A stretch of 64,000 bases of DNA, from contig OX442416.1 of assembly GCA_949361645.1 (NCBI GenBank), positions 12,695,540 through 12,759,539 on the forward strand, given 5' to 3'. Each line of letters begins with the position of its first letter. The stretch's first letter is position 1. Position numbers and translations under genes: made by a program. This document shows positions 1 through 64,000 of the stretch, one piece after another. This stretch comes from Spongilla lacustris (lineage: Eukaryota; Porifera; Demospongiae; Spongillida; Spongillidae). The notes below the pieces were generated by a model. It worked only from the letters and a program-made list of their open reading frames with translations. It was not told the DNA's origin and searched no databases.

Positions 1-89
1 ATTTACATGTACATGTACATGTACAGACAGCAGGCATCTCCTCTGATGTTGGTCACTCCACACCTCACACACACACCACTCCCACTCAC

Positions 90-3000
90 CCAGTGCCAGG
101 TGAGCTGCCAGTGCAGTCCTGGTGAGGGTGAGGGACCAGATGTGGAGGCTGTGGACGTGCTTCACACCTGGCACCTGGCCAAGGTCCCTCTTCACCTCCT
201 CGTAGTTCACATGACGTGGGGTCGCTGTGAGGGTACAAAGGTCATGTGCAAGTATTAGAGAACGCAAGAGTAGATGCACTTATTGAAACTACATGTACAT
301 GAACATTGTACATGTACATGTACATATACTATAGTGCTAGAACTGAGAACAGTCATGTACAGTGTGTGAACATGTAGTAGTACATATACATGTACATGTA
401 GTTACAAGTAAATGTGCATGTATACAATATTATAACAAAGGATACACTGTACATGTACATGTAAGTCGCTTAGAAAAAAGGCCATGATATTGCCTCTGGC
501 ACATTCCATCTGCTTTTGCACCATCACGTTCGAGCACTCTACGAACTACAAACTAAAGCCAAGTTCAAAACAAGAGCTTCTGAGTTAGCATGTAATTGAA
601 CTTTTAAAAGATGCAAACACCAAAACCACAGCTTTGTACTTATAAGGTATGTGGTCAGTTTATCAAATCCAAGGGCTAAATTAGCCAGTTTTGGAGGGAA
701 ATAATTCCTTCCTCAACAGAAATGTTTGGATCACAGTGTACATGTATCGTGTAAGAGCCATATTCCATTTCCATTTCGGAATATCTCAAATTGATACATG
801 TATACATATACCATCGGATAAAACCTTTATCATACCCCTTTTTGGTCATAATAAAAAACTGCATGAAATGTTACCAGTTATGATGCTTTTAAATCAAATT
901 GAGTCCCCAAGGTAGATACATTAACATGTACATGTACATGTAATCAACTCGAGTGTCACTAAAGAACACTTCAAGAAAACATACTGGATTTTTCAGTTAC
1001 AGTTTGGAATGACAAAACTTGCCTTCTGACTGTTTGCATGGACAGACCACACACCCTCCAAAGTGTTCTGCAGAAGCTTGTCACTTGTTTACTGTACAGG
1101 TATTTAGTGTGGGTCGATACTACTTACTTGTATAAACATGACCCTGTAAAATGTGTACCTTGGAAGGGCTTTTACTACCACAAACTGCATGTACATGTAT
1201 ACATGTACATGTACATGTACTTTGTACATGTACATATGTGTACTCACTCAATCTTTTCATGCAGTGGACTAGGCGTTGACGATAGGGCATCACTTCCCTA
1301 TGATCATGCAACAGGCTTTAGCATTTGTGTGTTATATTCTTATTTTGATTGTACTGTGTATGTAATAGTAACCGTGTGATATACATGTAATTAATGCATG
1401 CAATACATGTACATGTATGTTTGATTTTTCAGTCAAAATAAAGGAAGAGGGAAACCACAAAATGGACCCATGGAATGGAACATGGGAGCTTTGTGACCAC
1501 TACATGTATACTCCACCCACACCAATGGACCCTTTGCATGAAAGATCGGAAGTACGATAAACGTCACGTCTGGAGTAAAAACCACAGCGGTTGCCTAGAG
1601 ACATCGTGTCATGTTTGCGTAATAAAATGGCAACGCTCGGAGTCATTCCTCCCCACTCGGACAGTGATCCTTGAGCCAATCCAGTTCCTGGTCAAACTAT
1701 GCTGCCAACAGTATCTTGACAGAGTCTGATATACCTGGAGCCTTTTAAAAATGAATGGCTTTAAATAGGCTCTGGCTCGGTCAAACTTACTGTTACGTGA
1801 CGTTTATCGTACTTCCGATCTTTCATGCAAAGGGTCCATCAGTGTGGGTGGAGTATAGATGTAGTGGTCATAAAGCTCCCATATGCACATGTAAGTGTAC
1901 TCACCTTCCATTAGGACCAGGAGGGCATCTCTGAGGATGTTACCAGTGGAGAAGAGGACCAGTATGGAGAACAGGAAGGTACATATGGGGTCTGCTAACT
2001 TCCAGCTAGGCTGGAGGGAGGGAGGGGAGGGGTGGGGAGGGGAGGGAAGGGAGGGGAGAGGGGAGGGAAGGGAGGGGAGAGGGGAGGGAAGGGAGGGGAG
2101 AGGGGAGGGAGGGGAGAGGGGGAGGGAGGGGAGAGAGGGGAGGGAGGGGAGAGGGGGAGGGAGGGGAGAGAGGGGAGGGAGGGGAGAGGGGGAGGGGGGG
2201 GAGAGGTGGAGGGAGGGGAGAGGGGGAGGGAGGGGAGGGTGGGAGGGGAGGGAAGGGAGGGGAGAGGGGGAGGGAGGGGAGAGAGGGGTGAGAGGGGAGA
2301 GGGGGAGGGAGGGGAGAGAGGGGATGGAGGAGAGAGGGGGAGGGAGGGGAGAGGCAGAGGGAGGGGAGAGGGGAAGGGAGGGGAGAGAGGGAGGGGAGAG
2401 AGGGAGGGAGGATTGAGAGAGGGGGAGGGAGGGGAGAGGCAGAGGGAGGGGAGAGGGGAGGGATAGTGTTTAGAATCAGTTCAAGAAGTGAGTTAACATT
2501 TTCATTTTGCAATCAACAATAATACTCCTTATGTGGTACACATTTGTACATGTACATGTGCATGACATATTCATGACATGTTGTAAATCAATGGCACACA
2601 CACACACACACCCTGCACACATCAATGACCCACCTGAAACTTGATGATATAGCCAGCAATGACCACACCCACACTCTGTATGAGGTCACCTATCACATGG
2701 ATGAAGGCTGCCCTCACGTTGATGTTCTGTGCTGGCTTCCTCACAGAGCTTTTGACCTCAATGTCCTCCTCTACTGCATTGATGCTCACGACATCACTTC
2801 TGCCATGGCTGTTCTTTGCCTTTCCATGGCTGTGTCCATGGTGACTGTCCCCATGGTGATCATGTTCATCGTGGTCATGTCCATGGTGATCGTGATGCTC
2901 ATCACCATGGTAATTGTGATGCTCATCACCATGGTGATCATTGTGTCCATGACCACCTCCCCCATGGCTGTGTCCATGACCACCTCCCCCATGGCTGTGT

Positions 3001-6000
3001 CCATGACCCAGGACAGCCATCATGCTGAAATGTTGAAGTTTTGGAAAGAGAGAGAAAGCATAAATTTGTCATAACAACTTGTAATGGTATGGCCTCCCTC
3101 CCAGGAAGATAATTGTGTTTTTAATTGTTTTATGTTTTACTTATTCATATATTCCAATAATAAGCCTACATGTAAGTATATGTTAGACTGTTGGACTGCA
3201 CATTGTTCATACGTTGTGCTTATCAATCTTGGTGTGTTTGGTTGTTGTGTTTAATTGGGGGTGGGGTAACTCGACATTTTAAATGTTTACATCAGGTCAT
3301 GTACATTGTATTTCTGAAATTTGACTGCAAGCGTGTGTACATACATGTACATGTGTAGAATTACCCCATTCATCTCCCAATCAAACACAACAATAAAACA
3401 CACCAAAATAATATTTATCCGTATTTACATGTACATGTATATACTTACTATACAGGTACATGTATGGTGGGCTTCAATTGGCGGTTTTCCAAAACTACAG
3501 TGTATCCCATCAATACATAACCCTTCAACCATGCACATTAAAGCACTCACAAGACGTTCACAAACACTCCACCACCAGCTGTGATCAGCATAATGTCTGC
3601 ATCAATCTCATAGTCCTGGTTGATGATCCTGAGAATGGCCTCGTACACCAACACACCAGTCAGCAACCAGATGATCAGGACAGAGATGACAGCTCCCACA
3701 ACCTCTGTGATTGTGGGAGGGGGAGGGGAGGAGAGGAACAGGAAGACACAGAACTATTTATAATTCAAAAATGTGCACACAATGACATGTACCATGAACA
3801 CAACAGGTGTGGAGCACAGTACAACACGTGCATGTAAGCAGACATACAATGTACACGTATGTGTACATTGTATGTCTGTTTACATGCACGTGTAATTTGT
3901 ACACACATGTTACTCTACAACGTGTGGGTACATGTACATGTAGACAGGGTACATATACATGTATGTGATATTTTTTGTGGTGTGCACAAGAAATGGACAC
4001 ATGAGTACTAGTACAGTATACCTACATGTACATACATGTACATGTACATTTGTACATACATGTACATTTGTACATACATGTATATGTATATGTACACGTA
4101 CATGTACATGTACTTGTTCATGTACTACACATGTACATGTAGGTATACTGTACTATAGTACTCATTAGTCCATTTCTTGTGCACACCACAAAATACATCA
4201 CATACACAGGGTTTGCTTGGCGTGCGCCAAGCAGTAATTGTGGTTGACCATATTAATATATTCACGGTTGACAGTGGTGGTGTTAACATAACAGTGTACC
4301 TAAGCCTACCTAAGCCTAATTAGGGGGCGTAATCCACAATTGGAAAGAAGGAATCGCCTCGTACATGTACGTGCATCACTAATAATCTATTCAATTTTCA
4401 ATATGTGCATACATGTAAGTGTACATGTATGTGTGCAGGACCAAAATGCACTGTTTTGTTTCCATGGTGCACAAGGGTGATAATAGTTGTATGTATACAA
4501 GGGACTGGGTATTCTACTAACAATTGGCATTAGGTATATCCCTTTCTCTGTAGAGTTAATCAAACTGGTGGTATTTTCATAATCACATTGTAAATCTGCA
4601 TTATTAGAGAGTAGTAAGTCTTCAAATACATGCATCAATCAGCATAGTTATGCAACTACACATATTCTACGTTTGTTCATGCTACCCCAAATGCTAGCAG
4701 CCTTTTCAAACTCAAAGTGCTCTAAAGGCATACCCTCCACTGAAATTGTTATTAGTTGACATAAAGTTGATATTTGCAGTCTATTTATAAGATTTGTCTT
4801 AATTCTGTTCATTGCGGAAAAGCATCTTTCACACTCTGCAGTACTAACAGGCAGGATTAGTGCAATGGAAGCTAGTCTTGACAACTGAGGGAATAGGTCT
4901 TTAAGAGTTGCATCTAAGACTAGCAGCTTCAAAAATGACCTCATGTCTGTATTACGATATGCACGGGACATAAAGTGTTTGACGCTCTTCCACTCAGATT
5001 CTAACGCACTACAGTCAATATCTGGATTGTCCCCATTTCCATACTTGTCTTCAAGGATTGCCAGCGTGTCTAGTCCCCAAGTGTCAAATGAAACACTTGG
5101 TAATTTGGAAGGGTCAAATATGGTAAAGGCATTATATTCATCACTGATAGGAAAATAAATTTCCAGTTCTTTGATAACAGCATCAACATATTTCATCTGG
5201 ATGCAATCACGAAACCTTTCCCTTTCTGTTTCTGAATCCTTAATTTTGAAGCCTTGAAGAGCACCTTCAATAACTTCATCAACCTCTTGTGCTATATTTG
5301 CTGTACGATATGCTCGTATGCTTTGTATGTTGGAATCAAGGGCTGGCTGTATTAGTGATACATCTACGTGCTCCTTTTGAAATATCAGGCTCATGTGACT
5401 TATATGAGGCAAGATGTGATGCAGAAGGTGAGCACAAGCGATAAAGTAGTACAATGTAGGTCTTCACAAACTTTGCTAAACCTTCAGCCGCTGGTTCAGA
5501 GCGCTCTGTAGCCTCTCTTTCTAAACTTGCAATTAACGATGGAAGTGTGTGAATTATTGAGTTAATGGCAGCATCATGAGACAACCACCGAAAATCTTTG
5601 GCTTGAGTAAGCTTTATTATTGGATCATTGAAAACTTCCTGTATCAAATGAAGGCCAGCCATTTGGACAGGACTGTTCTGGTAGAACAGGAATAGTGATT
5701 GCACTGTAGATTTAAACTTTTGCAGATATGGAATGTCATCAGCGGTTGGTGGATCTTCAGTTTGGCAGCTACACCATTGTTCTTACCCACCATCACAGAT
5801 GTAGGTCAAAGTTCTTAATGTATGCCGTAACTGCTTCTTCAATTGTTTCTGCTTTGCCATTAGCAATGTCACACATGTGTACAAATGAGGTTTCCACATC
5901 TCCAGATGGTAGGAGATATTTTGCTACTATGACTGGCTGGCTCAAAACAGATATGTCAGTTGACTCATCAATCATCAGTGAATAGAAGGGACTGGATCGT

Positions 6001-9000
6001 AGCCTACTCAGCTTTGCATCTGCTGTGACTGATGCAAGACACTGTATGAAATCTCCTACAATCTGATGGCTTGAGTATGTTGCATTTCCACCACGAGAAA
6101 TATCTTATATGTATGTACACCCAAGGCTCTGTACCAGGCACAGCAAGGATTCGTACTTGGTAAAGATGGCAACCTCTTCTTTAGCTAGCCAGTAGACAAT
6201 CTTTAGTGTTCCTATTAGTGCCCTTCTCTGTGATTCATCTACACTCATTCCTGCATCACTTCCTTGTTGTAGCAAAGCTACCATATGCATTTTTGATTGT
6301 CTGTGGCACTCAATGCAATCTTTGCGAAGAGAAGTGCAGGGTACAGATGTCCATACACAAGGCTTGCTTTGTTCAACTTCACTAGAGTGGCATTTTGCAG
6401 TCTGCAAAGCTCACAAAGAAGCCCTATCACAGAACCATCAACCTGTTCTACTGTGACTACCCACGGATACTGCTGCTTCCATGCTGGACAGTATCCAACC
6501 TTATGCCCACTATTTTTCTTTTTACTCACTAATGTAGAAGCCTCCTCTAAACTCATCACTGATTCAAATGCTTTTTCTTGATTAACATGCTTTGTAAACC
6601 TGCATGAACCCTTTATATACTGTTTGAAGGAGGGGCTTGTGGGTAGAACATAAGATTCTAAAAATAGTAAAATCCCCCTTACCAAGCGAAATTTGTAAGG
6701 GAAAATCCTATTGCACTCCCCCAATTGTGGATTACGCCCCCTAAATAGGCTTAGGTAGGCTTAGGTACACTGTTATGTTAACACCACCACTGTCAACAAT
6801 GAATATATCAATATGGTCACCCACAATTACTGCGTGGCGCACGCCACGCATTTTGCGTGGCGCTGGCAGAAACCCTGATACATGTATATGCATCTCCCTC
6901 TGACTACCTGTACAGATAGTGTACATGTATGTCTAAACGGTGTGTGGTAGGGGGAAAGTCCACAAGGGACATGGGGAGAGGCTAACACTACACACAATAT
7001 ACACACTGTATACCTCAACAGTTATATTCACAGTCACAAGTTGCACTGACAGCTGATATGCAGGCTGCCATGAATGTATTACTGCTGTGCAGTACACATG
7101 TCTTGTGGGTAGGGGCACTACCTACATGCCAAGTATGGCGCCCAAGAATAGCAACAGTGTTTCCACCTACACATGTAGGAGTGCCTTCTGGGTGCAATGT
7201 GACACCAGAATAGGACTCCCAGGTGGAAGGTAGTGGTATGGAGCACACTTCACATGCAACCATAAACAATAATTATTTCTTCCTCCTTACTTCACATACA
7301 TGTACAGGTGTTCCCTTCAGTACGCTCAAGTACCCTCCCATAACCCCTCCCACCCCTCCCATAACCCCTCTTACCCCTGACTTCCCACCTAGTTTGACGT
7401 AGCCACACCCTTGCACTTTGCAGATGGTCTGGAGAAATTGCCACACCAAATCTGTTCTGATTACATGCACATGTACATGGACATGTAGTTTAAAATAATT
7501 GCAAGTTACAGGAATGTACAATTGTGCAATTAAAAATGTCGAAGGTGGAAAGGACTGCAGCAGACGTGGCTAAAGAAAGACCTCAAAAAGGAGGCTGTTG
7601 TACATGTAGCTGCGATAACAGGACTGGCACATTATTCCAGGTGTGGTAGTTTCAGACACTGAAACACTCAACTCTGGTATGTTAGCGTAAGTTCACGTAA
7701 CAGAATTGCATTCCTCGTAACATATGGTAACCTAAATTACTTTTAATTTTTAAACCTATTATAACCAATTTGGTGTGGCAATGTCTCCAGATCCTCCACA
7801 AAGGGCAAGGGTGTGGCTACGTCAGACTACTTCCCACCTTGTACATCCTCCCCCCCCCCACCCACCCCCACCACACACACGTACCAGCCCTATACCATCC
7901 AAAGGACATCTTCTGGGAGGCTGGCCTCCTGGCTATCCAGATGGCTAACAGGCTGATCAGGAAGGCTGCAAAGTCTGACAACATGTGGGCGGCATCTGTG
8001 AGGATGGCCAGACTGTTGGACAGCAGACCTCCTGCAAGGGGGTGTGGTCAAGGGGTGTGGTCAGCACAAGGAACACACGTTCACATGATGTGCATGAAGT
8101 ACATGTACATGTGCTACATTAAGTTATAAAATAACGATGACTTTTAATAATGTACAAATGTACATGTACATTTAAAATAAACAAGTACTCCTTAATCACC
8201 ACTGCCCATCCCCCTCAGCCACCTAAACAGTACAATAAATTTAGTATTCGATCAACTCCTTCATTGGTTCTGGTGTTAGACTACAATGTAGATGTAGCTG
8301 TAAGCTGATTGGTGTACTCACTGACTGCAAGCAGAGTACATGTCCATACATGTAGTGTCTGGGAGATGTATTAAGGCCGGCATTCCTGAGTTTGTCACAA
8401 TGAATATGGGTAAAAGTTCCATAATTACATAATTTACTGATGGTTTACGGAATGTTTACCCATATTCATTTTGAGATGCTTGTGCCAAGTTGGCAGGAAG
8501 TCACCTCGTGTGTGTGCCACCCCCCCCCCCCCCTACCCCCTCCCTCCCACCCCTTGGCTTTACATGCAGCACTGGAGCCAGCAGACATACATGTACACAT
8601 GTATGCACATGGGTAATGGTAAGCACACAAATATATACAAGTACAGTACATGTACAAGTATCTATCATAAAATGCATACATGTACACACTTCCACTATTT
8701 GTATACGAACTCATACTGCAGTTGCAATGCAAAAGTTAATCCTACAGATGTACAGTTACATGTCAACACCAAAAGTGCTACATTTGTTGACCTGTACATC
8801 TACATGTACGATATGACCGGATGGTTCAGGGTGGTGCGTGGCAAGCTGCCTTACCTACAACTTCTGCCGACATGAACACCAGAGTGATACCACACGCTAT
8901 CCCCAGCTTGGTCTGAGCATTCCTGCTGATCTCATCGGAGGAAGATTCCTTTGTGTGACACTCACACTTGCCTGACTGAGGGGAGGCAGTGAATCAGGAA

Positions 9001-9941
9001 CATCTTACATTTTATCCCACCCCCTACCAGCCATGTAGAAATGTAACCCCACCCCACAGTGTGTGATCTTCATAAGGGGTTACTCTACGAGGGCTCCACA
9101 AAGGGTCACCACACCAGCTTACCATCAGGGGACTAAAGGTGACCATACAATACGCTGCATGTTGTGTGCCATACAAATGAACAACCACCAGTAAACTAGG
9201 GTTTTACTGAACTTTTAGACTATGTTCATTAATTGAGTTGCAGGCAACATGTCGCCTAGTGTACATGCGTATGATTGCCTTTAAAACATACACCATGTAG
9301 GCACATACATGTAGCATACATGTGCACACAAGAAAAAGGAGATCATGTGATCCTGTGACTTGATTTGACATCCACTAAAACAATGGTAGGCAAATAGAAG
9401 ACTCAGATCACAACAAATGGACTTCCCCCCCAAGGCAACCCCTCTTTTCCCTTAGCAGTGTATAAAGCGGACAACTCTGCTAGCTAAGAGGGGCAGATAA
9501 GACCCCAGGACCAGTGTACACAGTACATCATGACCCACACACACAACCTTTGCACATGCACGTGGGTTTCGTTAGCTGCCAAACAGTGTCCACACATACA
9601 TATACACATATGTACATGCAGTTCGGGTTTTATAATTTTAATACACTAATAGGACCTTGTTAGTTGCACAAAGGATATAGTTATCTCGGGCATGTGTTGC
9701 TTCGAACAGGTAGTAACTTGCTAACGCACACTTATGAGTGGGCACCGTTAGGTCGAAAGCTTACCTGTACTAGTAGTGATAGCGATGAGGCAGATGAACG
9801 ATGGCTCCCCGGGGCCGTGCCGTATCCGCCAGCGGTAAGGTGGCCGTGGGGTTCAATGCAGCCGCAGTCGTGGCAGGGGCGGCGGAGGGTGTCCATATTT
9901 GGGGGGGCAGTGGTCAAAAAGATAATTATATTCATACTCAT
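90..9941 (-). CDS. Vesicular zinc transporter, SLC30A (ZnT2/3/4/8-like), left copy, 3' end outside window
   Basis: A cation diffusion facilitator that would move Zn2+ from cytosol into vesicles as a proton-coupled dimer (family knowledge). Minus-strand exons: 9941-9765 (exon 1), 8975-8855, 8031-7885, 3704-3551, 3024-2634, 2010-1905, 224-90; exon 8 lies beyond base 1. All have GT-AG borders and compatible phases with no stop. The TM2 site (TDAAHMLSD), the TM5 site (HVIGD) and a His-rich loop (exon 5) are present. The loop is three residues shorter than in the right copy. Exon 1 differs at its 5' end: the ORF opens [14 protein letters not shown] and lacks the acidic dileucine motif EKSSLL of the right copy. 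Exon 2 has several replacements in or near TM1 (W to G, A to T, L to S). It may be functional, mis-sorted or a young pseudogene; no promoter homologous to that of the right copy is seen. Confidence 0.85.
1483..1881. mobile_element. MITE-like element with about 80-bp terminal inverted repeats, intron of left ZnT
   Basis: The ends are long inverted repeats: the left starts ATGGGAGCTTTGTGACCACT and the right, read in reverse, starts ATGGGAGCTTTATGACCACT. They continue through the CTCCACCCACAC and GATCGGAAGTACGATAAACG segments. The element lies downstream of left exon 6. At the matching place in the right copy (about 61815-61852) only one degenerate arm (GAAGCTTTGCGACCACTTAA) remains. The element was therefore lost or rearranged there, or grew by inverted copying here. 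No coding capacity; superfamily not determined. Confidence 0.6.
2011..2462. repeat. Purine-rich GGGA/GGGGA tandem tract at splice acceptor of left ZnT exon 6
   Basis: About 450 bp of nearly pure purine on the + strand, built from GGGAGGGGAGAG-type units. On the transcribed strand it is an expanded polypyrimidine tract ending directly at the CTCCAG acceptor of exon 6. The right copy has only about 25 bp of pyrimidines at the same acceptor. Such tracts can form triplex or G-quadruplex structures. ORFs read through it are Gly/Glu/Arg or Pro/Ser/Leu monotony and are artefacts. Confidence 0.85.
3963..4197. repeat. Foldback element enclosing ACATGTAC repeats
   Basis: A near-perfect inverted repeat of about 65 bp per arm. 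One arm reads TTTTGTGGTGTGCACAAGAA from about 3971 and its reverse complement ends near 4190; both run inward through GAGTACTAGTACAGTATACC to a core of overlapping ACATGTAC motifs. In the right ZnT copy only one of these arms is found (60010-60055), directly beside the giant 10-bp array. The core here is the likely short ancestor of that array. Confidence 0.7.
4207..6877 (-). mobile_element. hAT-superfamily transposon, 2.7 kb, inserted in left ZnT intron
   Basis: The termini are CAGGGTTT...AAACCCTG, followed by inverted-repeat blocks of about 130-150 bp: 4207-4345 contains GTTAACATAACAGTGTACCT and AGGGGGCGTAATCCACAATTG, mirrored at 6720-6877. The interior encodes a decayed hAT transposase on the minus strand. 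The element is absent from the right arm. I could not find a clean 8-bp target duplication (left flank CACATACA, right flank ATACATGT). The insertion site may have been rearranged, because the flanking 6878-7300 segment is also missing from the right arm. Confidence 0.88.
4648..6724 (-). pseudogene. hAT transposase (ZNF862-like type), frameshifted
   Basis: Reading right to left, coding blocks lie at 6724-6278 ([24 protein letters not shown]), 6407-6105 ([20 protein letters not shown]), 5975-5793 ([20 protein letters not shown]), 5704-5336 ([17 protein letters not shown]) and 5454-4648. The last ends with the hAT C-terminal dimerisation domain: [20 protein letters not shown], then the KTNLINRLQ stretch. 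Block order matches ZNF862/KIAA1586-type hAT transposases. Adjacent blocks sit in different frames, with frameshifts near 6300-6400 and 5340-5450 and stops between 5700 and 5800, so it is not active as it stands. Confidence 0.85.
6878..7310. other. Segment private to the left duplication arm
   Basis: About 430 bp between the hAT end and the point where the two arms realign (AGTACGCTCAAGTACCCTCC near 7320, matching about 57645). No coding content is recognised and there is no counterpart in the right arm. It is either ancestral intron lost from the right arm when the 10-bp array formed, or left-specific gain. Confidence 0.5.
8392..8475. repeat. Short inverted-repeat element (TGAATATGGGTAAA), one in each ZnT copy
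   Basis: AATGAATATGGGTAAAAGTT pairs with the AACATT-TTTACCCATATTCATTTT end around an AT-rich centre. The same structure occurs at 56564-56632 in the right arm, and a relative lies at about 43362-43424. It is a small foldback MITE family present before the duplication. Confidence 0.5.
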
Positions 9942-10489: not shown

Positions 10490-13449
10490 GTACTTAAATG
10501 TAGAGCTTGCATGAACCTCTTCAGCAAGCAGCAAAAGTGCTCTGTAGTCAGCTTCAGTAAACAAAGCTATGTTATCTCCTACAAATTGAGCAAGGCTTAA
10601 GGCACTCCGTTTTGCCTCTTCCAGTGGCACAGTTCGAGGTTCTACATTATTTGGATCAGCCTCTCCATCACTTTCATCATCTCTATCCTCAATGTCTCGA
10701 CCCATCAACCTGGCAGCTATTTGAGCGATGGTCTCAGCCCCCTCAGTTTCCATCTCGCCTGGAGCATTCACCCACTCAGTTGCACTCATGCGGGTTGTCC
10801 CATTTTCCACTGGCAGCCTATGGATAGCTGTAGTAATTGCTGTCATCTGTGCACCTTCTGTAGCTTCTGCCATTGCCACTGCTGCCCTATCTGGCCTCAG
10901 ATGACAGTGCCACGGCACTCAGCAGGGAGAATGTCAGCCTCACACCAGCAGTTGACTATAGTGGAGAGGGTAATTTCGCCCCATGCAGCAAGTAGCCATA
11001 TGATTGCCTGAATTTGGAGATCAAAAAAGTTTAATCAATCTGTGGTATTTTTTAAGCAACAAAGTATACTCACAAGAAATAATGTAAAATAACCTCCTTC
11101 ACATTGAATTTTGATGACAAAGCCCGCAGATCTTGGGTGGGATCAATGTCATACTGGGTGACCATGTGGGTGGCAAGCTTGCTTTTGTACCGAGCCTTTA
11201 GTGCAGAAATCACACCCTGGAAAAGATTGCTCAACTTAAAGCAATCAAAGCTGCCCACTTTGATCATGGGCATATCAGACAAAATGTGGGAACTGGCATT
11301 GTCAAGACGCATCAGACACTGTCGCTTTTATTGCTTGAACTGCTCATTGACTTGTTTTGACCAGTCAGTAAACACCTAAGTATCCACCACAGATATAAGA
11401 TCTGATTAAAATGTATTTCATTTATACATGCATTAGTTTCTTCTTACATCTGTGCGCATCCAGGCATTTGTATTGGAGTAATACATGACCAGACTGTTAG
11501 GGTTAAATGTTCTGCCAAAGCAACGTGGTTTCTTGTACTTGTGTATTACTACTGGCTTCAGTCGTTCACTTGCAGTTACATTTATACAGGTCCTTTGCTT
11601 TCTTGGCACCCCGCACGTCTGCGGTGGTGGGTGTGTGATCAGGCTGTAAAAAAAATCATTACAATGTAAAGTGTGCACCATTTCCCTTCCAAATTATATA
11701 CATGTACCAACATGTAATAAAGAAGTCATATGTACCATGTAATGTACAAATGGGCTATGTATGTGCATGTGCCTTGGTCAATTCACTTACTGCTTGTCTG
11801 TAAAATAACCCTGTCTCGTCGATATTGAATACATCCTCTGGTCGATACTTCTCAATGATACCAGGCAACTCCCTCTGGGCTCTAGCCACACCTTGCTGGT
11901 CAGCACCACCAGCCTCTCCATGTAACCGCACGCTGAATACGCCATGCCATCCTTTCCATCTAGAAAGCCAACCATTGCTTAAAATAAGCTGTCCATCCAC
12001 AGTGAGATCATCATTGCTGGAAGCTGTTGGTGATAGCTGTCTGCTGCTAATTGTGGGTGTGGCTGTCACTGGCTGGCGGTTAGTGGCTGTCATGATCACT
12101 GGCTGGCGGTTAACTGGAGGTGTGGCTGCCACTGGTTCAGTGGCGGATCCAGGGGGGAAGGGGGGGGGGGGGGTCTAAGGGGTCTAAAGACCCCCCCCCC
12201 CCCTCGGCCCGACCAGTTATGAATAAATTAACTTATGAATAATTAATTACATGATTGACGAGTTGAAAAACGAAGCGTTTAGTGAACGCGAGTGAACTGA
12301 TTATATAGCATTCGACCCAAAGTGTGTGTGAGTGTATGTGTGTGTGTGTATGTGGGGGGGGGGTCTAAAGCCAAGGCCCTCCAAGCGTGCAGTGTTTTAT
12401 TAGTATTACTGCTGCGCGATGGAATATTGCCGTGCGAGCAAGAAGTAAGCGATCAAAAGAAGACCCTAAATCAAGTAGGGTATATAATACTGCTAAAACG
12501 TGTGTGTCGTTTAGATCAGAATACGGTCACAATGGCTTTGCGTAGAGTTTTCTATTCGCTATCCTTATCCACGTTTATTAATCGACTCGAATATTGCGCT
12601 TGCTAGCTATCAATAATGAACACACTTTCAAAGTATGCTTATTTTCAAGCTAAATGAACGCAAAAGTGAAAAAGCGGCTGGGGCTTCGCCCCAGACCCCA
12701 CTGGGGGAGCTTGCAGCGCTCCCCCAGACCCCCTAGCTAGCTGTCCAGTACCCACCCCGCTTGTGAATATAGTTATTAGACCCCCCCCCCCTTCCAGAAA
12801 TCCTGGATCCGCCGCTGCGGTTGGCTACTAACTGTGGGTGGGGCTGCCACTGGCATGGTTGGCTGCTAACTGAGGGTGGGGCTGCCACTGGCTGGCTGCT
12901 ATTAGCTGTAGAAGTAACTGGTACTGGATTCAAAGAAGATGTGGAAAGATGGATACCCAACTCCTGAGCTAATTCGGCAGCTTTTGTGAGCAAAAGAGCA
13001 TCCGATAGCACACCGCTAAGATCATCGTTTATTTTATGCATGCTACTTTCGAAAGGGGCATGCTTTATTTACCTACTGAACCATGTGAAAAGTCCTGGGG
13101 CCATTTGGGCCCCCTCCTCCTGCATGCATCTCTTCGCCTCCGGTCCATCAATATCCATCTCATGGAAGCCAGCCCGGACGTATGTGCCAACTGAGCGATG
13201 GATCTCTTTGCCTGTCTTCAGTTTGAACCAGACTGCGACCATGTTTTCAGAATAACCTGTTTCCACCTTTCTTCGTGCAATCATGTGCTTATCATCAGCG
13301 GTCAACTTGGTCTTAGCCTTAGGCTTTGCTCCCGTTAACTCGGACATCATATGGCCAGTATTACAAAAATGAGCCTTCTTTCCTTTTATAGTGCGTCGTG
13401 TTGCATGCGAGCGGGTTGTGCACAATTCGCTTGTCTTTGTGCGCCTCAC
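10490..13449 (-). pseudogene. Tigger/pogo transposase (CENP-B HTH plus DDE_1), broken
   Basis: From the right: an N-terminal helix-turn-helix region (13449-13069, MSELTGAKPKAKTKLTADDK onward); a spacer region; a CENP-B-type HTH block (11980-11800: LSNGWLSRWKGWHGVF, then LHGEAG); the first catalytic Asp in VFNIDETGLFYR; then, after an intron-like GTAAGT at about 11790, the block KPVVIHKYKKPRCFGRT...SNTNAWM (11620-11440); the second Asp in LDNASSH (about 11300); and a C-terminal stretch AIIWLLAAWGEITLSTIVNC (about 11000). A frameshift separates GAKKAKD from INVTASERLKP near 11590. The tail ORF at 10918-10469 is acidic. This order is diagnostic of Tigger elements; the copy is not intact. Confidence 0.85.
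12138..12817. mobile_element. Non-autonomous hAT-like element nested in the Tigger copy
   Basis: The termini are CAGTGGCGGATCCAGG and, inverted, CAGCGGCGGATCCAGG, each followed by poly-G/poly-C runs. This is a common terminal sequence of non-autonomous hAT elements. The interior has the hallmark GGGGCTTCGCCCC and GGGGGAGCTTGCAGCGCTCCC hairpins seen in three other places in the window. The host coding sequence (a run of GTGGCTGCCACTGG repeats) resumes on the far side. The flanks CACTGGTT and CGGTTGGC do not give a clean 8-bp duplication. Confidence 0.75.
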
Positions 13450-13670
13450 GCCGCTTGTCTTTGTGCGCCTTTCGCGCGTCTTTGTGCGCTTGTCTGTGAT
13501 CCGCGCTCGTTCATTCTTACCGCGCGTTATGCATGACCGATAGTTTCAACATGTATGTATGAAAAAGATACACGTACCACCGCACTACATGATTTATTCA
13601 ACATTGCGCTACTAACGAGGGAATGCGCTACTAACGCAGTGCGCTACTAACGGGGGTAGACTGTATAGAG

Positions 13671-44980: not shown

Positions 44981-44999
44981 TGAAGGAGCTTACAGCTGC

Positions 45000-46588: not shown

Positions 46589-46599
46589 TTTATATAGTG

Positions 46600-47750: not shown

Positions 47751-47757
47751 ACATTAC

Positions 47758-47985: not shown

Positions 47986-47999
47986 AAAAGTTACAGCTA

Positions 48000-48340: not shown

Positions 48341-48349
48341 GAGCTGATG

Positions 48350-48826: not shown

Positions 48827-48835
48827 GAGCTGATG

Positions 48836-49170: not shown

Positions 49171-49179
49171 ATAGAAAAT

Positions 49180-53480: not shown

Positions 53481-53482
53481 TC

Positions 53483-56400
53483 ATGTCGAGTTATAACGAG
53501 AAGTCTTCGCTGCTTACTGCTCGTCGCGAAAATGGACAACCTCCTCCAGTCGAGGCCGACGTTGTAAGCGAGTCCCACGAGTTGGGTGCCTGCGGCTGTG
53601 TTAAACCCCACGGCCACCTTACCGCTGGCGGATACGGCACGGTCCCGGGGAGCCATCGTTCATCAGCCTCATCACTGTCAATACAGGTAAGCTTTCGACC
53701 TAACGGTGCCCATGTCATGTGTGCGTTAGCAACAGTACCCACCACCACCACCACCCCGTTTATACCTGTTCGAAGCAGCACATGCCCGAGATAACACTAA
53801 TATCTACATGTATATATATACAAGATATAAAAACATTCTCTCTGAGAAAGTTAGTGGCAAACAAGAGATCAACGATGGTACAATTTTTTTGAAAAGTCAT
53901 ATAATTAGCACTTTCGTAGTATGTATACATTTTACATTGCTAAATATAGAACTATTCAAAAAATTTGTACCATCGTTGATCTCTTGTTCCCTTCCTTTTT
54001 ACACCATCATTGCCTTTAAATCCTATATACCACTAACTTTCTCAGAGAGAATGTTTTTATATCTTGTTTCATTGATTTTTTTATTTATAGTATACAGGTG
54101 TACATGTACTTTGCAACCCGTACATACTAGTACAATGTACAAGTAAATACGATTGTATGACAAAATCCAGCCGTTGTAATTCCCAATGTTTATTGCCTAG
54201 CAACACAATGTTTACAGTTATGTTACATTTGCAGCTGGTCTAGATCGAAACTCGCGCTCCAAGCTTTGCCTCTTAGGAGCTCGTTTCTCGTCTGAGTTCA
54301 GTTCATAACGCCGCCTCTTAGAAGCTTGCACCGCAACGGAATTCTTTTCCTGTCGACTCCAGATTTGCTCTGTACATGTCACGAACAAACGCCCGCCTTT
54401 GTTCAGCATCAGCATCGTACCGAAATCGGGAGGACTCTAACTCATAGTCTCGATTTAGGACGTATTCCTCTTGTCGCTTTTTTCTCCTCTTTCGTTCCCG
54501 TGAAGAAGGCATTTTGACAACGTCATTTAAAGGTTAATGGTACCATAAATGTCTAATTATACGTGTGGGTATTGTCATGGGAACGCTTGTGTTAGGTACT
54601 TGGACGTAATTATTGCTTTATACCAAACATGTATATCTGACCTCAAGGGGCAGTCGGTAGATAAATTCTACATCTATTGGTGTAACTGGCGCTCTTTAAA
54701 ACCGTTCCTATCTCGAGTTATACTCACCCATAAAAACGACGACGACTATGGACAAATTACGGTCTGGGAACGAGAACTACGAGCTTTGATGCCTTTGCAT
54801 CTACGTCATTTTTCTACTCAAATGAGCTCGAGTACATGACTGGCGTTGGGCCCGCGCACGGCATGTGCTGTAAGCAAAAAAAAAAACAAAAAACACACAC
54901 ACATACACAAAGGAACAACAAAAATGCAACGAAGAAAAAAAAAAACCTTGTATATGAGAGTTTTTCTTAGTGCTTCGTTTTATGCACTAATGGCTGCAGG
55001 CATATAGTGAGAGGCTTCCCTTTGGAATGTTACCTTAGACTCTCCAAATATTTAGCTGATCATCTCCTTTCCATTGTGGCTCGATAGCAATAAAGAGCTA
55101 GACTATCCGTTTCTCGGTTCGTGAGTTATACGCGGGACGCGTTTTTTAATGATACGGCACAAATCCTATATGAGAGTTACTGCCGTAACTCTCGATATAT
55201 CCTTGGTGCATGCAACGAATAAGGTCTTGTTAGTGTATTAAAATTATGAAAATGTGAACCACATGTACATGTGTATATGTATATGTATGTGTGGACACTG
55301 TTTGGCAGCTAACGTGATGGTTGGTCCCATGTAAGGTGCACAGGAGGTTATGTAGGTGACCTACATGTAACCACATGCATACGTGTACAGTACACAGGGT
55401 ACAAAGGTTGTGGGTGTGGGTCATGATGTACTGTGTACACTGGTCCTGGGGTTTTATCTGCCCCTCTTAGCTAGCAGAGTTGTCCGCTTTATACACTGCT
55501 AAGGGAAAAGAGGGGTTGCCTTGGGGGGGAGTCCATTTGTTGTGATGTGAGTCTTCTGTTTGGCTACCATTGTTTTACTGGATGTCAAATCAAATCACAG
55601 GATCATGTGATCTCCTTTTTCTTGTGTGCACACAATTCATGCCTACCTGCAAACATGTTGCCAGCAACTCATTGGTAACAACCCTAGTTTACTGATGGTT
55701 TACTGATTTTAGCTTTATTCAGCAACATGTTGGTCACCTTTAGTCCCCTGATGGTAACCTGATGTGGTAACCCTTTGGGGAGCCCTCGTAGAGTAACTCC
55801 TTATGAAGATCACACACTGTGGGGTAGAGGCTACATGTACCATGGTCCCTATCCCTAGTGATGTAGACCTCACAAATACAACCCCCTGTTGCGTGCACTG
55901 TGTTACAGCACCTTCCCACAACTACATGTAAATGGTTGGTAGGGGGTGGGGTCAGATTTCTACATGTACATGGTTGTTAGGGGTGGGGCTACATGGTTGG
56001 TAGGGGGTGGGGTTACATTTCTACATGGTTGGTAGGGAGTGGGGTTAGTATGGTTGTTGTGCCTCCCCTCAGTCAGACAAGTGTGAGTGTCACACGAAGG
56101 AATCCTCCTCCGACGAGATCAGCAGGAATGCTCAGACCAAGCTGTGGATAGCGTGTGGTATTGCTCTGGTGTTCATGTTGGCAGAAGTTGTAGGTAAGGC
56201 AGCTTGCCACACACCACATCTGGTCATATTGTACATGTACATGTACACTGTAGGTCAACAAATGTAGTAATTTTGGTATTGATATGTACATGTACATGTA
56301 CATGTAACTTCACAGTTCTAGAATTAACTTTTGCATTGCAACTGCAGTATGAGTTCATATACATATACATGTACATGTAGGTGTGTATGTACCTGTATAT

Positions 56401-59400
56401 ACATGTGTATTTGTGTACTTACCATTCATGTGCATACATGTGTACATGTATGTCTGCTGGCTCCAGTGCTGCATGTAAAGCCAGGTGGGGGAGGGAGGGG
56501 GGAGGGGTGCCACACACACATGGGGTGACTTCCTGCCAACGTGGCGCATGCATCTCAAAATGAATATGGGTAAATCATCAGTAAATTAAATACACATGTA
56601 ATTATGGAACTTTTACCCATATCCATTTGAGTTGCATGTCAACAGGAAGTTGCTCCGTATATGCTTGCCACTATGCCAGAGTGCAGCCTTAACACATCCT
56701 TCGGCATGTGTACACCAATCAGCTTACTGCTATAGGTACATGTACATCATGTAAAGGTGTGTTCCTTGTGCTGACCACACCCCTTGACCACACCCCTTTA
56801 CCACACCCCCTTGCAGGTGGTCTGCTGTCCAACAGTCTGGCCATCCTCACGGATGCCGCCCACATGTTGTCAGACTTTGCAGCCTTCCTCATCAGCCTGT
56901 TTGCCATCTGGATAGCCAGGAGGCCAGCCTCCCAGAAGATGTCCTTTGGATGGTATAGGGCTGGTACGTGTGTGGTGGGGGTGGGTGGGGGGGAGGATCT
57001 AAATCTAGGTGGGAAGTAGTCTGACGTAGCCACACCCTCGCATTTTGTGGAGGGTCTGGAGATTTTTTTTTTTTAAATGAGTATTTATAAATTTTACCTT
57101 ATGTTACGAGGAATGCAATTATGTTACATGAATTTACGCTAACAGGCCAGGGTTTCAGTCTCTGAAACTACATGTACTAAACCAGGAATGATGTGCCAGT
57201 ACTGTTATCGCAGTTACATGTACAACAGCCTCCTTTTTGAGGTCTTTCATTATCCATGTCTTTCCAGCGTCCACATTATGAATTACATTCCTCGTAACAT
57301 TATGACATGCGTGAAAGCTAACATTAGTACATGTATATGTACATGTGTATGTATATGTACATGTACATGTATATGTACATCAATTTTTTGAAACTACATG
57401 TATGTACATGTGAGAACCGATTTGGTATGGCAATGTCTCCAGACCCTTGCAAAGCGCGAGGGTGTGGCTACATGTATGTCAGACTTGGTGGGAAGTCAGG
57501 GGTGAGAGTGGATATGGGAGGTGGGAGTGGTTATGAGAGGTGGGAGTGGGTTATGGGAGGTGGGAGTGGTTATGAGAGGTGGGAGTGGTTATGGGAGGTG
57601 GGAGTGGTTATGGGAGGTGGGAGGGGTTATGGGAGGGTATTTGAGCGTACTGAAGGGCACGTGTATGTACATGTATGTACATGTATGTATGTACATGTAT
57701 GTACATGTATGTACATGTATGTACATGTATGTACATGTATGTACATGTATGTACATGTATGTACATGTATGTACATGTAGGTACATGTATGTACATGTAT
57801 GTACATGTATGTACATGTATGTACATGTATGTACATGTATGTACATGTATGTACATGTATGTACATGTATGTACATGTATGTACATGTATGTACATGTAT
57901 GTACATGTATGTACATGTATGTACATGTATGTACATGTATGTACATGTATGTACATGTATGTACATGTAGGTACATGTATGTACATGTATGTACATGTAT
58001 GTACATGTATGTACATGTAGGTACATGTAGGTACATGTATGTACATGTATGTACATGTAGGTACATGTATGTACATGTATGTACATGTAGGTACATGTAT
58101 GTACATGTATGTACATGTATGTACATGTAGGTACATGTGTGTACATGTGTGTACATGTATGTACATGTATGTACATGTATGTACATGTATGTACATGTAT
58201 GTACATGTATGTACATGTAAGTACATGTGTGTACATGTAGGTACATGTATGTACATGTATGTACATGTATGTACATGTATGTACATGTAGGTACATGTAT
58301 GTACATGTATGTACATGTAGGTACATGTAGGTACATGTATGTACATGTATGTACATGTAGGTACATGTATGTACATGTATGTACATGTATGTACATGTAT
58401 GTACATGTATGTACATGTATGTACATGTAGGTACATGTATGTACATGTAGGTACATGTATGTACATGTAGGTACATGTATGTACATGTATGTACATGTAT
58501 GTACATGTAGGTACATGTAGGTACATGTAGGTACATGTATGTACATGTATGTACATGTATGTACATGTATGTACATGTATGTACATGTATGTACATGTAT
58601 GTACATGTATGTACATGTATGTACATGTATGTACATGTATGTACATGTATGTACATGTATGTACATGTATGTACATGTATGTACATGTATGTACATGTAT
58701 GTACATGTATGTACATGTATGTACATGTAGGTACATGTATGTACATGTATGTACATGTATGTACATGTAGGTACATGTATGTACATGTATGTACATGTAG
58801 GTACATGTATGTACATGTATGTACATGTATGTACATGTAGGTACATGTATGTACATGTATGTACATGTATGTACATGTATGTACATGTATGTACATGTAT
58901 GTACATGTATGTACATGTATGTACATGTAAGTACATGTGTGTACATGTAGGTACATGTAGGTACATGTATGTACATGTATGTACATGTAGGTACATGTAG
59001 GTACATGTATGTACATGTATGTACATGTAGGTACATGTAGGTACATGTATGTACATGTATGTACATGTAGGTACATGTATGTACATGTATGTACATGTAT
59101 GTACATGTATGTACATGTATGTACATGTATGTACATGTAGGTACATGTATGTACATGTAGGTACATGTATGTACATGTAGGTACATGTATGTACATGTAT
59201 GTACATGTATGTACATGTAGGTACATGTAGGTACATGTAGGTACATGTATGTACATGTATGTACATGTATGTACATGTATGTACATGTATGTACATGTAT
59301 GTACATGTATGTACATGTATGTACATGTATGTACATGTATGTACATGTATGTACATGTAGGTACATGTAGGTACATGTAGGTACATGTATGTACATGTAT

Positions 59401-62400
59401 GTACATGTATGTACATGTATGTACATGTAGGTACATGTATGTACATGTATGTACATGTATGTACATGTATGTACATGTATGTACATGTAGGTACATGTAT
59501 GTACATGTATGTACATGTATGTACATGTATGTACATGTATGTACATGTATGTACATGTATGTACATGTGTGTACATGTAAGTACATGTGTGTACATGTAG
59601 GTACATGTAGGTACATGTATGTACATGTATGTACATGTATGTACATGTAGGTACATGTATGTACATGTATGTACATGTAGGTACATGTAGGTACATGTAT
59701 GTACATGTATGTACATGTAGGTACATGTATGTACATGTATGTACATGTATGTACATGTATGTACATGTATGTACATGTATGTACATGTAGGTACATGTAT
59801 GTACATGTAGGTACATGTATGTACATGTAGGTACATGTATGTACATGTATGTACATGTATGTACATGTAGGTACATGTAGGTACATGTAGGTACATGTAT
59901 GTACATGTATGTACATGTATGTACATGTATGTACATGTATGTACATGTATGTACATGTATGTACATGTATGTACATGTATGTACATGTATGTACATGTAT
60001 GTACAATGTACTAGTACTCTTTAGTCCATTTCTTGTGCACACCACAAAATTTCACCTACCACGTACATGAGTGTATGTACACTGTCTACAGTACATGTAC
60101 ATGTACCCACTGTGCCTGCACGTTGTAGAGTTAACATGTACATGCACACATACGCATGTACATGTACATACACAATGTATATGTACATGTGTACATGTGT
60201 ACATACACGTACGCATATACATGTACATGTATGTCTGTTTACATGCACATGTTGTACTGTACATATATCAGTAGCTCCACACCCTCACTGTTGTCATTGT
60301 GTAGTTGGATGGCTGTGTGCACATCTTGAATTATAAATAGTTCTATCTTCCTGTTCCTCTCCTCCCCTCCCATCCCACAATCTCAGAGGTTGTAGGAGCT
60401 GTCATCTCTGTCCTGATCATCTGGTTGCTGACTGGTGTGTTGGTGTACGAGGCCATTCTCAGGATCATCAACCAGGACTATGAGATTGATGCAGACGTCA
60501 TGCTGATCACAGCTGGTGGTGGAGTGTTTGTGAATGTCTTGTGAGTGCCTTGATGTGCATGGGTGGAGGGTTGTGTATTGATTGGATAGTTTGGAAAACC
60601 GCCAATTGAAGCCCACCATACATGTACATTATATACATGTAAATACTTATTATTATTAAAGATGAAATATTAATTTTCGGTGTGTTTTATTGTTGTGTTT
60701 GATTGGGGGATGGGTGGGTGGGGTAATTCTACACATGTACATGTACACACGCTTGCAGTCAAATTTCAGAAATACAATGTACATGACCTGATGTAAACAT
60801 GTAAAATGTCGAGTTACCCCACCCCCAATTAAACACAACACAAAAACAACCACCAAACTTAATAAGTACAATTTATATACAATGTACACGCCAACATTCT
60901 AACATCTGATTATTATACACTTACATGTAGGCTTATTATTGGCTAAAATAAAATAAAAAATGATTATCTTCCTGGTTTTAATAACAGAGGGAAGCCATAC
61001 CATTACGAGCAGTTATGACAAATGCTTTCTCTCTCTTTCCAAAACTTCAACATTTCAGCATGATGGCTGTCCTGGGTCATGGACATAGCCATGGGGGAGG
61101 CGGTCATGGACACAGCCATGGGGGAGGCGGTCATGGACACAATGATCACCATGGTGATGAGCATCACAATCACCATCACCATGGTGATGAGCATCATGAT
61201 CACCACGGACATGACCACAATGAACAATATGATCACCATGGGGACAGTCACCATGGACACAGCCATGGAAAGGCAAATGACAGCCATGGCAGAAGTGATG
61301 TCGTGACCATAAATGCAGTAGAGGAGGACATGGAGATTAAAAGCTCTGTGAGGAAGTTAGCACAGAACATTAACGTGAGGGCTGCCTTCATCCATGTGAT
61401 CGGTGACCTCATACAGAGTGTGGGTGTGGTCATTGCTGGTTACATCATCAAGTTTCAGGTGGGTCGTTGTTGTGTGCAGGGTGTGTGTGTGTGTGTGTGT
61501 GTATTAAGGGCCATTGTTGTGCATGTACATGTACATGTACAACATGTCATGCACATATACAGTATATTGTACATTGTACCACACAAGGAGTATTTTTATT
61601 GATTGCAAAATGTTAACTCACTTCTTGAACTGATGTTAATCACTATCCTTCCCCTCTCTTCCCTCCCTCCCTCCAGCCTAGCTGGAAGGTAGCAGACCCC
61701 GTATGTACCTTCCTGTTCTCCATATTGGTCCTCTTCTCCACTGGTAACATCCTCAGAGATGCCCTCCTGGTCCTAATGGAAGGTGAGGACACTTACATGT
61801 GTATATAGAAGCTTTGCGACCACTTAACTACACCCACACCAATTTGGTGGATTCCCTCTTGTTATTTTTTATTTTTTTGACTGCAAAAAAAAATAGAAAT
61901 CGAACAGTTCTTTTGCTTTCAGAGTGTAATTGTACATGTACATGTACACATACTTATTTGGAATGGTGACTCCCCTATTGCATGTATTACATGTATACAG
62001 TGTACATGTATCATACGGTTACTATTACACACAGTACAAACAAAAGAAGACTACATGTAACGTTCAAAGAGAGACAAAAATAATAATGCTAAAAGCATAT
62101 TGTATGATTGTAGAAAGTGATGCACTGCATGAAAAGATTGAGCGAGTACATGTACACACATGTACATGTACACACATGTACATGTAAGTAGTATCAACCC
62201 ATACTAAATACCTATAATTGTCCCATTTTCAACCTGAAAAATCGAGTATGTTTTCTCAAAGTGTTTTTTGAGTGACACTCTAGTTGATTACATGTACATG
62301 TACATTACATGTGTATGTATGTACCTTGGGGACTCAATTTGATTTAAAAACATCACATTACAGGTAACGTTTCATGCAGTTTTTTACTATGACCAAAAAG

Positions 62401-63854
62401 GATATGATAAGTGTTTTATCGGATGGTATACATGTATCAGTTGGAGATATTCTATAATGGAAATGGAATATGGCTATTACACCATACATGTACACTGTGA
62501 TCCAAATATTTCTGTTTGGGAAGGGATTAGTTTCCCCAAAAATTAGCTAGTTTACTGACCACATACATGTACCTTATAAGTACAAAGCTGTGGTCTTGGT
62601 GTTTGCATCTTTTCAATGAGGATGCTGACTCAAAAGCTCTTGGCTTTAGTTACATGTAGCTCTTAGAGTGCTTGAACTTGATGGTGGAAAAGCAGATGGA
62701 ATGTGTTCACTGTCCAGAGGCAATGTCATCTAAGCGACTTACATGTACATGTACAGTGTATCCTTTTGTTATACTATTGTACATTTATATATGTACATGT
62801 GTGTACATGTAACTACATGTACATGTAGTTACATGTACTAACTACATGTACATGTACAGTAATGTGTACACTCACTATGCATGATTGTTCTCAATTCCAG
62901 CACTATAGAGCAATTGAAGTACATGCCATGTACATGTACATGTACATGGCATGTACAATGTTCATGTTCATGTAGTTTCAATAAGTGCATCTGCATATGC
63001 ACTCTTGCATTTTCTAACACTCACACACCTTTGCGTCCTCACAGCTACCCCACGTCACGTGAACTATGAGGAGGTGAAGAGGGACCTTGGCCAGGTGCCA
63101 GGTGTGAAGCACGCCCACAGCCTCCACATCTGGTCCCTCACCCTCACCAGGACTGCACTGGCAGCTCACCTGGCACTGGGTGAGTGTGGGAGTGGTGTGT
63201 ATGTGAGGTGTGGAGTGACCAACATCAGAGGGTTGCCTGCTGTCTGTACATGTACATGTATGTGAGTGTACATGTACATGTACATGTATGCCTATGGATG
63301 AACACATGTCACATGCATCTCCCTCCCTCCCTCCCTCCCTCCCTCCCTCCCTCCCCCTCCCTCCCTCCCTCCCCCTCCCTCCCTCCCTCCCCCTCCCTCC
63401 CTCCCTCCCCTCCCCCTCCCTCCCTCCCTCCCCCTCCTCCCTCCCTCCCTCTCTTATGTACATGTACATGTACCTCTATGATGCAAGGTCAAATAAAAAA
63501 TCATTACACATGTTACCACGGTATATGAGAACCAACTTCAGAATATTCTGCATCTACATGTACAACATGTACATATACATGACCATGCACTGTTTGTTTG
63601 TGTACACACTGCCACATCTACATACATGTACACACTGCTATCTCCCTGTTCCCCCTTGTCCCCCACCAGAGCCTGGTGTTAACTACCAGGAGGTGCTGGA
63701 TGCGGCCTCTGCCATGCTGAAGGCCAAGCACAACATTGAGCAGACCACACTGCAGGTGGAGGAGTTCCGCATCGCCATGGAAACGTGCCAGACCTGCCAG
63801 AACGTGAAGAGGCCTAGCCTGCTGGACAATGTCATCAGAAGAGTCAGCAGTTGA
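53483..63854 (+). CDS. Vesicular zinc transporter, SLC30A (ZnT2/3/4/8-like), complete 8-exon gene
   Basis: Exons: 53483-53686, 56073-56193, 56817-56963, 60387-60540, 61059-61458, 61677-61782, 63045-63179 and 63670-63854. They total 1452 bp, giving 483 aa; every junction is GT-AG and the phases join exactly. The N-terminus has an acidic dileucine signal (EKSSLL, residues 6-11) as in endosomal/vesicular ZnTs. TM1 lies at about 92-110. The TM2 zinc site is H124/D128 in [10 protein letters not shown] cytosolic loop at about 216-285 holds some 29 His (HGHSHG, HHGDEHH). The TM5 site is H321/D325 in HVIGD. The C-terminal domain carries the conserved HSLHIWSLT and ends with a CQTC pair, as in vesicular ZnTs. 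The family packs zinc into secretory or endosomal vesicles. The ATG is chosen because exon 1 then ends in phase 0 and begins with the sorting motif. The exact vertebrate orthologue (2, 3, 4 or 8) cannot be assigned. Confidence 0.93.
53820..54067. mobile_element. 248-bp palindromic MITE, copy B, in ZnT intron 1
   Basis: Same family as 27352-27642: arms with AAAACATTCTCTCTGAGAAAGTTAGTGG and complement. It lacks part of the arm that carries the GCCTTCAAATCCTATATACC block on one side. Absent from intron 1 of the left copy. Confidence 0.8.
54218..54512 (-). pseudogene. Lys/Arg-rich repeat-family ORF, copy 3, in ZnT intron 1
   Basis: It starts at 54512: [20 protein letters not shown], then [20 protein letters not shown]. 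The basic pattern continues in another frame ([20 protein letters not shown] then [10 protein letters not shown]) to 54218, implying one frameshift near 54370. Same family as 25853 and 30161. It is antisense to ZnT and absent from the left arm, so it came in with the 1.4-kb insertion. Confidence 0.55.
54540..55200. repeat. Segment paralogous to 30200-30975, part of the intron 1 insertion
   Basis: Contains GTTATACTCACCCATAAAAA, CTGGGAACGAGAACTACGAG, GGAATGTTACCTTAGACTCT (matching about 30940), AGCAATAAAGAGCTAGACTA, and a terminal hairpin TATATGAGAGTTACTGCC...AACTCTCGATATA. Together with the adjoining Lys/Arg-rich ORF and MITE it forms the right-arm-specific insertion 53794-55210. Confidence 0.65.
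57664..60003. repeat. 10-bp minisatellite (GTACATGTAT)n with higher-order structure, ZnT intron 3
   Basis: From 57691 to 60000 the unit repeats 231 times in perfect 10-bp register without an indel. Variation is almost confined to the tenth base (T or G; rarely A) and a few GTACATGTGT units. It lies between ZnT exons 3 and 4, beside one arm of the foldback known from 3963-4197. Its stop-free frames give spurious ORFs of up to 818 aa on the minus strand. Three copies of a higher-order pattern are present (see findings). Confidence 0.97.
63314..63457. repeat. (CCCT)n / CCCTCC pyrimidine tract, ZnT intron 7
   Basis: About 145 bp of CCTCCCTCCCTCCCC units on the + strand, complementary in style to the purine tract of the left copy but in a different intron. 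Confidence 0.9.
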
Positions 63855-64000
63855 CCTGCTGGAATGTACTTGCAGAGGCTGGACATGTAATCTTGAGATC
63901 AATAGGCTTACATGTAATCATGAAATGAAATTGAGGTTGTCTATAACTATTGTAGATTTCTTGTACATGTATGTGTATATTTATGTCAAATTGTTCTGCC

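Follow-up and report, generated by a model that had tools for sequence, protein, structure and literature searches.

The genome of the freshwater sponge Spongilla lacustris contains, on chromosome 2 (C2) of assembly odSpoLacu1, a stretch of 64,000 bases (C2:12695540-12759539, here called the window, with positions counted from its first base) in which two zinc transporter genes are arranged as mirror images across a long, repeat-rich spacer. Is this a real inverted duplication, a palindrome whose arms are kept alike, or two haplotypes of one locus wrongly joined in the assembly? The mirror-image genes are, very probably, a genuine pair that forms part of a lineage-specific expansion within a ZnT gene cluster. 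We are confident that the gene in the left arm (c2, arm A) and the gene in the right arm (c3, arm B) are diverged SLC30A2-type paralogues in a cluster of at least eight genes, which arose by multi-copy expansion in the Spongilla lineage, and that the gap between them was widened by dispersed elements.

The mirror arrangement is seen directly in the sequence. In a minus-strand self-comparison, 11 blocks in mirror order link positions 10-9867 with 63260-53590, far above chance, and exons 2-7 of c2 and c3 pair one-to-one in mirror order. This bears out the inverted arms with mirrored exons of a preliminary description of the window. Arm A occupies approximately positions 1-9869 (minus strand), and arm B starts at 53479 with its last exon ending at 63854 (plus strand); each carries one SLC30A2-type (ZnT2/3/4/8-like) gene. 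The arm boundaries first reported are broadly good, but the gene in arm B runs past 63265, its final exon being located at 63670-63854. Pairing exon for exon, as first proposed, holds for exons 2-7; arm A has the second half of exon 1 only, and its exon 8 is expected outside the window. The exons mismatch at 40 of 919 bases (4.4% in exons 2-6), within the 3-5% claimed earlier. In the introns the mismatch is about 10%, with large insertions or deletions in introns 1 and 3. The unequal layout of the arms is due to arm-specific insertions: about 3 kb with a hAT frame in intron 3 of c2, and, in c3, about 1.4 kb of extra sequence in intron 1 together with a 2.35 kb TGTATGTACA array in intron 3.

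The pair does not stand alone. A whole-genome search for Cation_efflux gave 20 matches, 12 of which are on C2, where they mark eight ZnT2-like genes, a lower bound, within 0.64 Mb (12.67 to 13.31 Mb). In order these are c1 (-), c2 (-), c3 (+), c4 (+), c5 (-), c6 (+), c7 (-), and c8 (+). The two genes noted at first are both in the window, but six further ZnT2-like genes are found on the scaffold. Synonymous divergence (dS), calculated for c1-c4 from exons 2-7 (306-351 codons), is 0.156 for c1-c2, 0.133 for c1-c3, 0.155 for c1-c4, 0.118 for c2-c3, 0.123 for c2-c4, and 0.114 for c3-c4, and the ratio of nonsynonymous to synonymous divergence (dN/dS) is 0.20-0.30. Coding dS is thus about equal for c2-c3 and c3-c4. 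In introns 1-6 the mismatch is lowest for c3-c4 (265/3463, 0.077), followed by c2-c3 (379/3742, 0.101), c2-c4 (314/2519, 0.125), c1-c3 (464/3585, 0.129), c1-c4 (345/2406, 0.143), and c1-c2 (444/2898, 0.153). By its introns, therefore, the nearest relative of arm B is not arm A but c4, which is on the same strand approximately 180 kb away. A two-gene array present as two mirrored haplotypes (c1 with c4, c2 with c3) was also considered. It is rejected, since few pairs are more distant than c1-c4, and c3-c4 is closer than c2-c3.

These further copies bear on the possibility that the assembler joined two haplotypes of one locus head to head, as the preliminary description had allowed. Mirror-image arms would be expected to raise this suspicion, and haplotypic duplications do occur in assemblies; it is reported, in the portion of the S. 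lacustris genome note available to us, that 160 of them were removed in curation. The same portion describes an assembly of 248.7 Mb in 23 chromosomes (chromosome 2, 22.15 Mb) built from 34x HiFi and Hi-C data with purge_dups and curation, so that a purging step had been applied, and a term search of it found no mention of heterozygosity. Joined haplotypes would not account for two further copies that are about equally distant, and dS between the arms is as high as 0.118. The join has no assembly gap: the window contains 0 N, and the closest runs of 200 N, apparently scaffold gaps, are at C2:12,635,340 and 12,766,250.

Nor are the outer flanks mirrored. The flank outside arm A, compared over its readable part (the portion adjoining exon 7 of c2 reads N), is common to c1, with 94.1% and 94.8% ungapped identity over 2,244 and 1,488 columns, and also matches short pieces elsewhere in the genome at 68-84%. 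It has no counterpart beside c3 in the 52 kb from c3 onward or among the 40 of 63 genome-wide candidates that were scored. Frames judged by eye to be Ig/FN3-like adjoin both c1 and c2 on the minus strand (C2:12,658,042-12,669,299 and C2:12,690,101-12,692,600), and weaker relatives are grouped at C2 18.6-18.76 Mb and on C23.

Linked ZnT genes are found in another species as well, as would be looked for in a real duplication. Six genes of Ephydatia muelleri (EMCRGX_G004795, 4796, 4802, 4806, 4816, and 4822) are listed with near-consecutive tags on one contig of 14,856,820 bases. With c2 and c3 not the closest intron pair, the flanks unmirrored, further copies present, the Ephydatia genes linked, and no N in the window, joined haplotypes are very unlikely. 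The extra copies, the readable flank, the uninterrupted sequence, and the Ephydatia linkage all contradict this part of the earlier account. Its other suggestion, a real inverted duplication, is right in that both arms appear to carry true paralogues on a single stretch free of N. What it misses is that four similar copies exist, within a cluster of eight genes or more, and that arm B is closer in its introns to c4 than to arm A.

The Ephydatia cluster resembles that of Spongilla in having linked ZnT genes that correspond to members of the Spongilla cluster. By translated matching, 4795 fits best with c7, 4802 with c6, and 4806, 4816, and 4822 with c1-c4; two exons seen of c5 are most like 4802. 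The place of c6 is in conflict, as the protein tree joins it with 4796 (support 93.1/93), and the highest-scoring match of 4796 is c3. In the same tree, c1-c4 form one clade (99.8/100) apart from three Ephydatia proteins and a 476-residue protein; the tree omits c5 and c7, has c6 and c8 in rough form, and takes c2 from exons 2-7 and c4 without exon 1. The two species differ, then, in that the three c1-c4-like proteins of Ephydatia are located outside the Spongilla c1-c4 clade, so that the expansions were separate or the copies of each lineage were homogenised. Within the clade the tree groups c1 with c3 and c2 with c4, at low support.

Several observations weigh against a simple history of four paralogues. 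Of 1,918 noncoding sites aligned in all four copies, those with two-to-two patterns favour c3+c4 (21 sites) over c2+c3 (16) and c2+c4 (12). The coding two-to-two patterns favour c1+c3 (7 of 13), with 3 for each of the other two pairings. The noncoding sites, the coding sites, and the protein tree thus conflict on the branching order of c1-c4, and the conflict stands. Because c4 is beyond a 200-N run, its place and orientation rest on scaffolding; the compared sequence has another, longer stretch of N between c1 and c2. The c2 gene may be damaged, as half of its exon 1 is gone and the site of its exon 8 reads N. Two of the sampled spacer pieces (11600-13600 and 21000-23000) have only more diverged or partial copies. 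All of the support, finally, comes from the assembly sequence.

Palindromic and inverted segmental duplications with gene conversion also consist of two mirror copies around a spacer, and a recent palindrome, its arms kept alike by conversion or able to extrude a cruciform, would produce the mirror arrangement. Two further results could be read in this way. A run of concordant sites between c2 and c3 has a permutation p value of 0.046, and among 79 noncoding sites just 3' of exon 7 the two differ at 2, fewer than introns 1-6 would predict (Fisher p 0.021). However, a palindrome of this kind should have near-identical arms that are each other's closest copies. Here the arms differ by about 10% in their introns with large insertions or deletions in introns 1 and 3, and c3 is closer to c4 than to c2 (0.077 against 0.101 in introns 1-6). 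Arm identity is low compared with known cases and the repeat-rich spacer, at 43 kb, is very long. We consider a recent palindrome barely credible. The cruciform mentioned in the preliminary description appears implausible given the intron mismatch, the many insertions and deletions, and the length of the spacer. Its suggestion of gene conversion fares a little better: there is a hint at the 3' end, in the comparisons with c1 and in the 79 sites of c2-c3.

This hint is consistent with old paralogues that still undergo ectopic conversion at their 3' ends, in either orientation, which would be compatible with the paralogue interpretation. Noncoding mismatch 3' of exon 7 falls to 44/697 in c1-c3 (from 464/3585 in introns 1-6, Fisher p 1.8e-7) and to 27/494 in c1-c4 (from 345/2406, p 8.8e-9). 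In each of the pairs with c2, 2 of 75-79 noncoding sites differ (p 0.0006 for c1-c2, 0.021 for c2-c3, and 0.006 for c2-c4), and dS in exon 8 is 0-0.025 among c1, c3, and c4 (0-1 synonymous differences). The pair c3-c4, on the other hand, has no such drop (39/622, p 0.25), and the same pattern could come from local constraint or from rapid evolution of the 5' part of c1. Longest-run permutation tests are mixed. With four copies p is 0.0007 for c1-c2, 0.022 for c1-c3, 0.0056 for c1-c4, 0.046 for c2-c3, 0.020 for c2-c4, and 0.18 for c3-c4; with three copies it is 0.0043 for c1-c3, 0.27 for c1-c4, and 0.024 for c3-c4; and noncoding sites of c1, c3, and c4 give 0.16, 0.18, and 0.028. The p values of both kinds of test, Fisher and longest-run, are uncorrected for multiple testing. 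These results hint either at ectopic conversion that is patchy across the family or at constraint on the 3' ends; conversion from arm to arm between c2 and c3 may have occurred but is not shown by them. Continuing conversion at the 3' ends is possible, though less likely than not.

What do the two genes encode? Translation in conserved frames with a check of splice sites gives c3 as a complete protein of 483 residues in eight exons (53483-63854, plus strand), all seven introns being GT-AG. Exon 1 with the start codon is at 53483-53686, exon 2 at 56073-56193, and exon 3 at 56817-56963. Intron 3 contains the tandem array (57662-60010; about 234 copies of the 10-base unit), and exon 4 follows at 60387-60540. 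Exon 5 (61059-61458) encodes the histidine-rich loop and the fifth transmembrane helix (TM5); exons 6 and 7 are at 61677-61782 and 63045-63179. Exon 8 with the stop codon lies past the arm end first reported. A whole-protein Pfam scan, made within c1-c4 for c3 only, found Cation_efflux (162.8 bits, cut-off 26.6) and ZT_dimer (53.2 bits, cut-off 26.7). The top matches among solved structures are SLC30A3 (9jj1), ZnT8 (7y5g), and SLC30A4 (9jj3), and the best protein match is from E. muelleri.

The HxxxD motif in TM2 and TM5 is characteristic of cation diffusion facilitators of the SLC30A2 type, and HMLSD and HVIGD are found at these places in the translations of c1, c2, c3, and c4. The sequence of c3 places it among the cation diffusion facilitators of the SLC30A2/3/4/8 type. 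It shares with the animal members the two Pfam domains, the histidine-rich loop, both HxxxD motifs, and the top structure matches. It differs from them in that the loop varies in length between the Spongilla copies. Exon 5 is 304, 391, 400, and 367 nt long in c1, c2, c3, and c4, with the same remainder by three in all. Since both motifs and the loop, whose length varies by multiples of three, are kept, c1, c3, and c4 probably encode functional zinc/proton exchangers that act in vesicle membranes, by analogy with these relatives.

While the introns are shared at about 85-92%, homology upstream of the ATG ends at 4 nt (c1) or 13 nt (c3-c4). Nothing alignable between c1, c3, and c4 that could be a shared promoter was found in 8 kb (c1 and c3) or 2.9 kb (c4) upstream, and further out only repeats are found. 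Because the upstream sequence is unshared, the three genes may be differently controlled. The difference could stem from breakpoints, insertions, or an upstream intron.

In c2 (minus strand), exons 2-7 are whole, with intact splice sites and without a stop. They are located at 8855-8975, 7885-8031 (exon 3, keeping HxxxD of TM2), 3551-3704, 2634-3024 (exon 5, with the histidine-rich loop and HxxxD of TM5), 1905-2010, and 90-224. The first half of exon 1 has been lost, and homology to c1 and c3 begins within this exon, approximately at the edge of the remaining half (9765-9867). An in-frame ATG at 9894-9896, 44 codons from the exon 1 donor, could give c2 a new N-terminus. Loss of exon 8 from arm A was suspected at first and dropped, since its expected place beyond the window edge reads N in the compared sequence; for the same reason the 3' end of c2 can be called neither complete nor broken. 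The insertion in intron 3 contains a frame for the hAT transposase C-terminal dimerisation domain (4648-5463, minus strand) between 95% inverted repeats (4214-4343 and 6721-6850). A search up to 12 bases from the ends of the inverted repeats gave no exact 8 bp repeat that could be its target-site duplication.

The spacer (9870-53478) was described at first as almost pure mobile DNA. Five 2-kb pieces, about 10 of its 43.6 kb, were searched in the genome; the copy counts are lower bounds. Four of the five are dispersed, which agrees with that description as far as the sample goes, and the fifth is low in copy number; tandem arrays are also present. Piece 33300-35300 has at least 12 other full-length copies (87-96%), 44500-46500 at least 10 over at least 1,997 of 2,001 bases (91-98%), and 47500-49500 at least 4 full-length copies (92-99%) plus many partial ones. 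Piece 11600-13600 contains two families, one apparently within the other, with many partial copies, mostly at 74-93%. The low-copy piece is 21000-23000, which has a tnp2-transposase-like frame below the Pfam cut-off. Positions 44500-49500 are part of a dispersed element, the sampled ends of which match neighbouring stretches of C9 at 98% and 99%; with these and many other copies the element is probably young. Three of the five pieces have a closest copy at 96-99% identity, a difference of 1-4%. Compared with about 10% between the arms, this suggests that part of the spacer may have arrived after the duplication of the arms, a sign that is absent from the other two pieces.

The Pfam scan covered 30 sequences, namely c3, two frames of arm A, and 27 of the 72 spacer frames of at least 90 amino acids. 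Among the 29 other than c3, one is above the cut-off (the hAT dimerisation domain in intron 3 of c2), three are sub-threshold (tnp2, RAG1_imp_bd, and YVC1_C), and 25 have no match. No host gene was recognised among the 27 spacer frames scanned, and a search of a phage collection gave no match. The spacer also has a 116-base inverted repeat at 27353-27641 (99% complementary, 57-base loop), a foldback-type element whose arms match 53958-54058 and 30698-30778 as well.

Taken as paralogues, c1 (-), c2 (-), c3 (+), and c4 (+) would descend from one ancestral gene through repeated duplication within the Spongilla lineage, some copies in one orientation and some in the other. Insertions of dispersed elements between and within the copies would then have moved c2 and c3 apart, until 43 kb lay between them. 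Like ZnT2/3/4/8, the encoded proteins would export zinc across vesicle membranes with proton coupling.

Another member of the cluster, c7 (C2:13,202,440-13,203,526), has both metal-site histidines replaced (H..D to S..E in TM2 and to F..D in TM5). Ephydatia EMCRGX_G004795, 55% identical to c7, has the same loss (N..E and F..D). In 232 ZnT proteins checked for the motifs, 229 have both, EMCRGX_G004795 has neither, and two have the one in TM2 only. One could propose that ordinary ZnT2-like copies were amplified behind unrelated 5' flanks, that c7 is a partner subunit or a carrier of another metal, and that the copies are tuned by their site of expression and by pairing with c7; we consider this proposal unlikely.

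The cluster is a fairly ordinary lineage-specific expansion of a gene family, not a new kind of system. It was not found in titles or abstract openings on sponge zinc transporters, family expansion, or inverted duplications. As the mirror arrangement is very likely genuine, c2 and c3 are to be counted as separate Spongilla genes. With ZnT genes linked in two genera of freshwater sponges, copies of recent origin, 5' flanks that differ, and a member whose metal site is altered, the cluster is a usable case for the study of how a transporter family diversifies.

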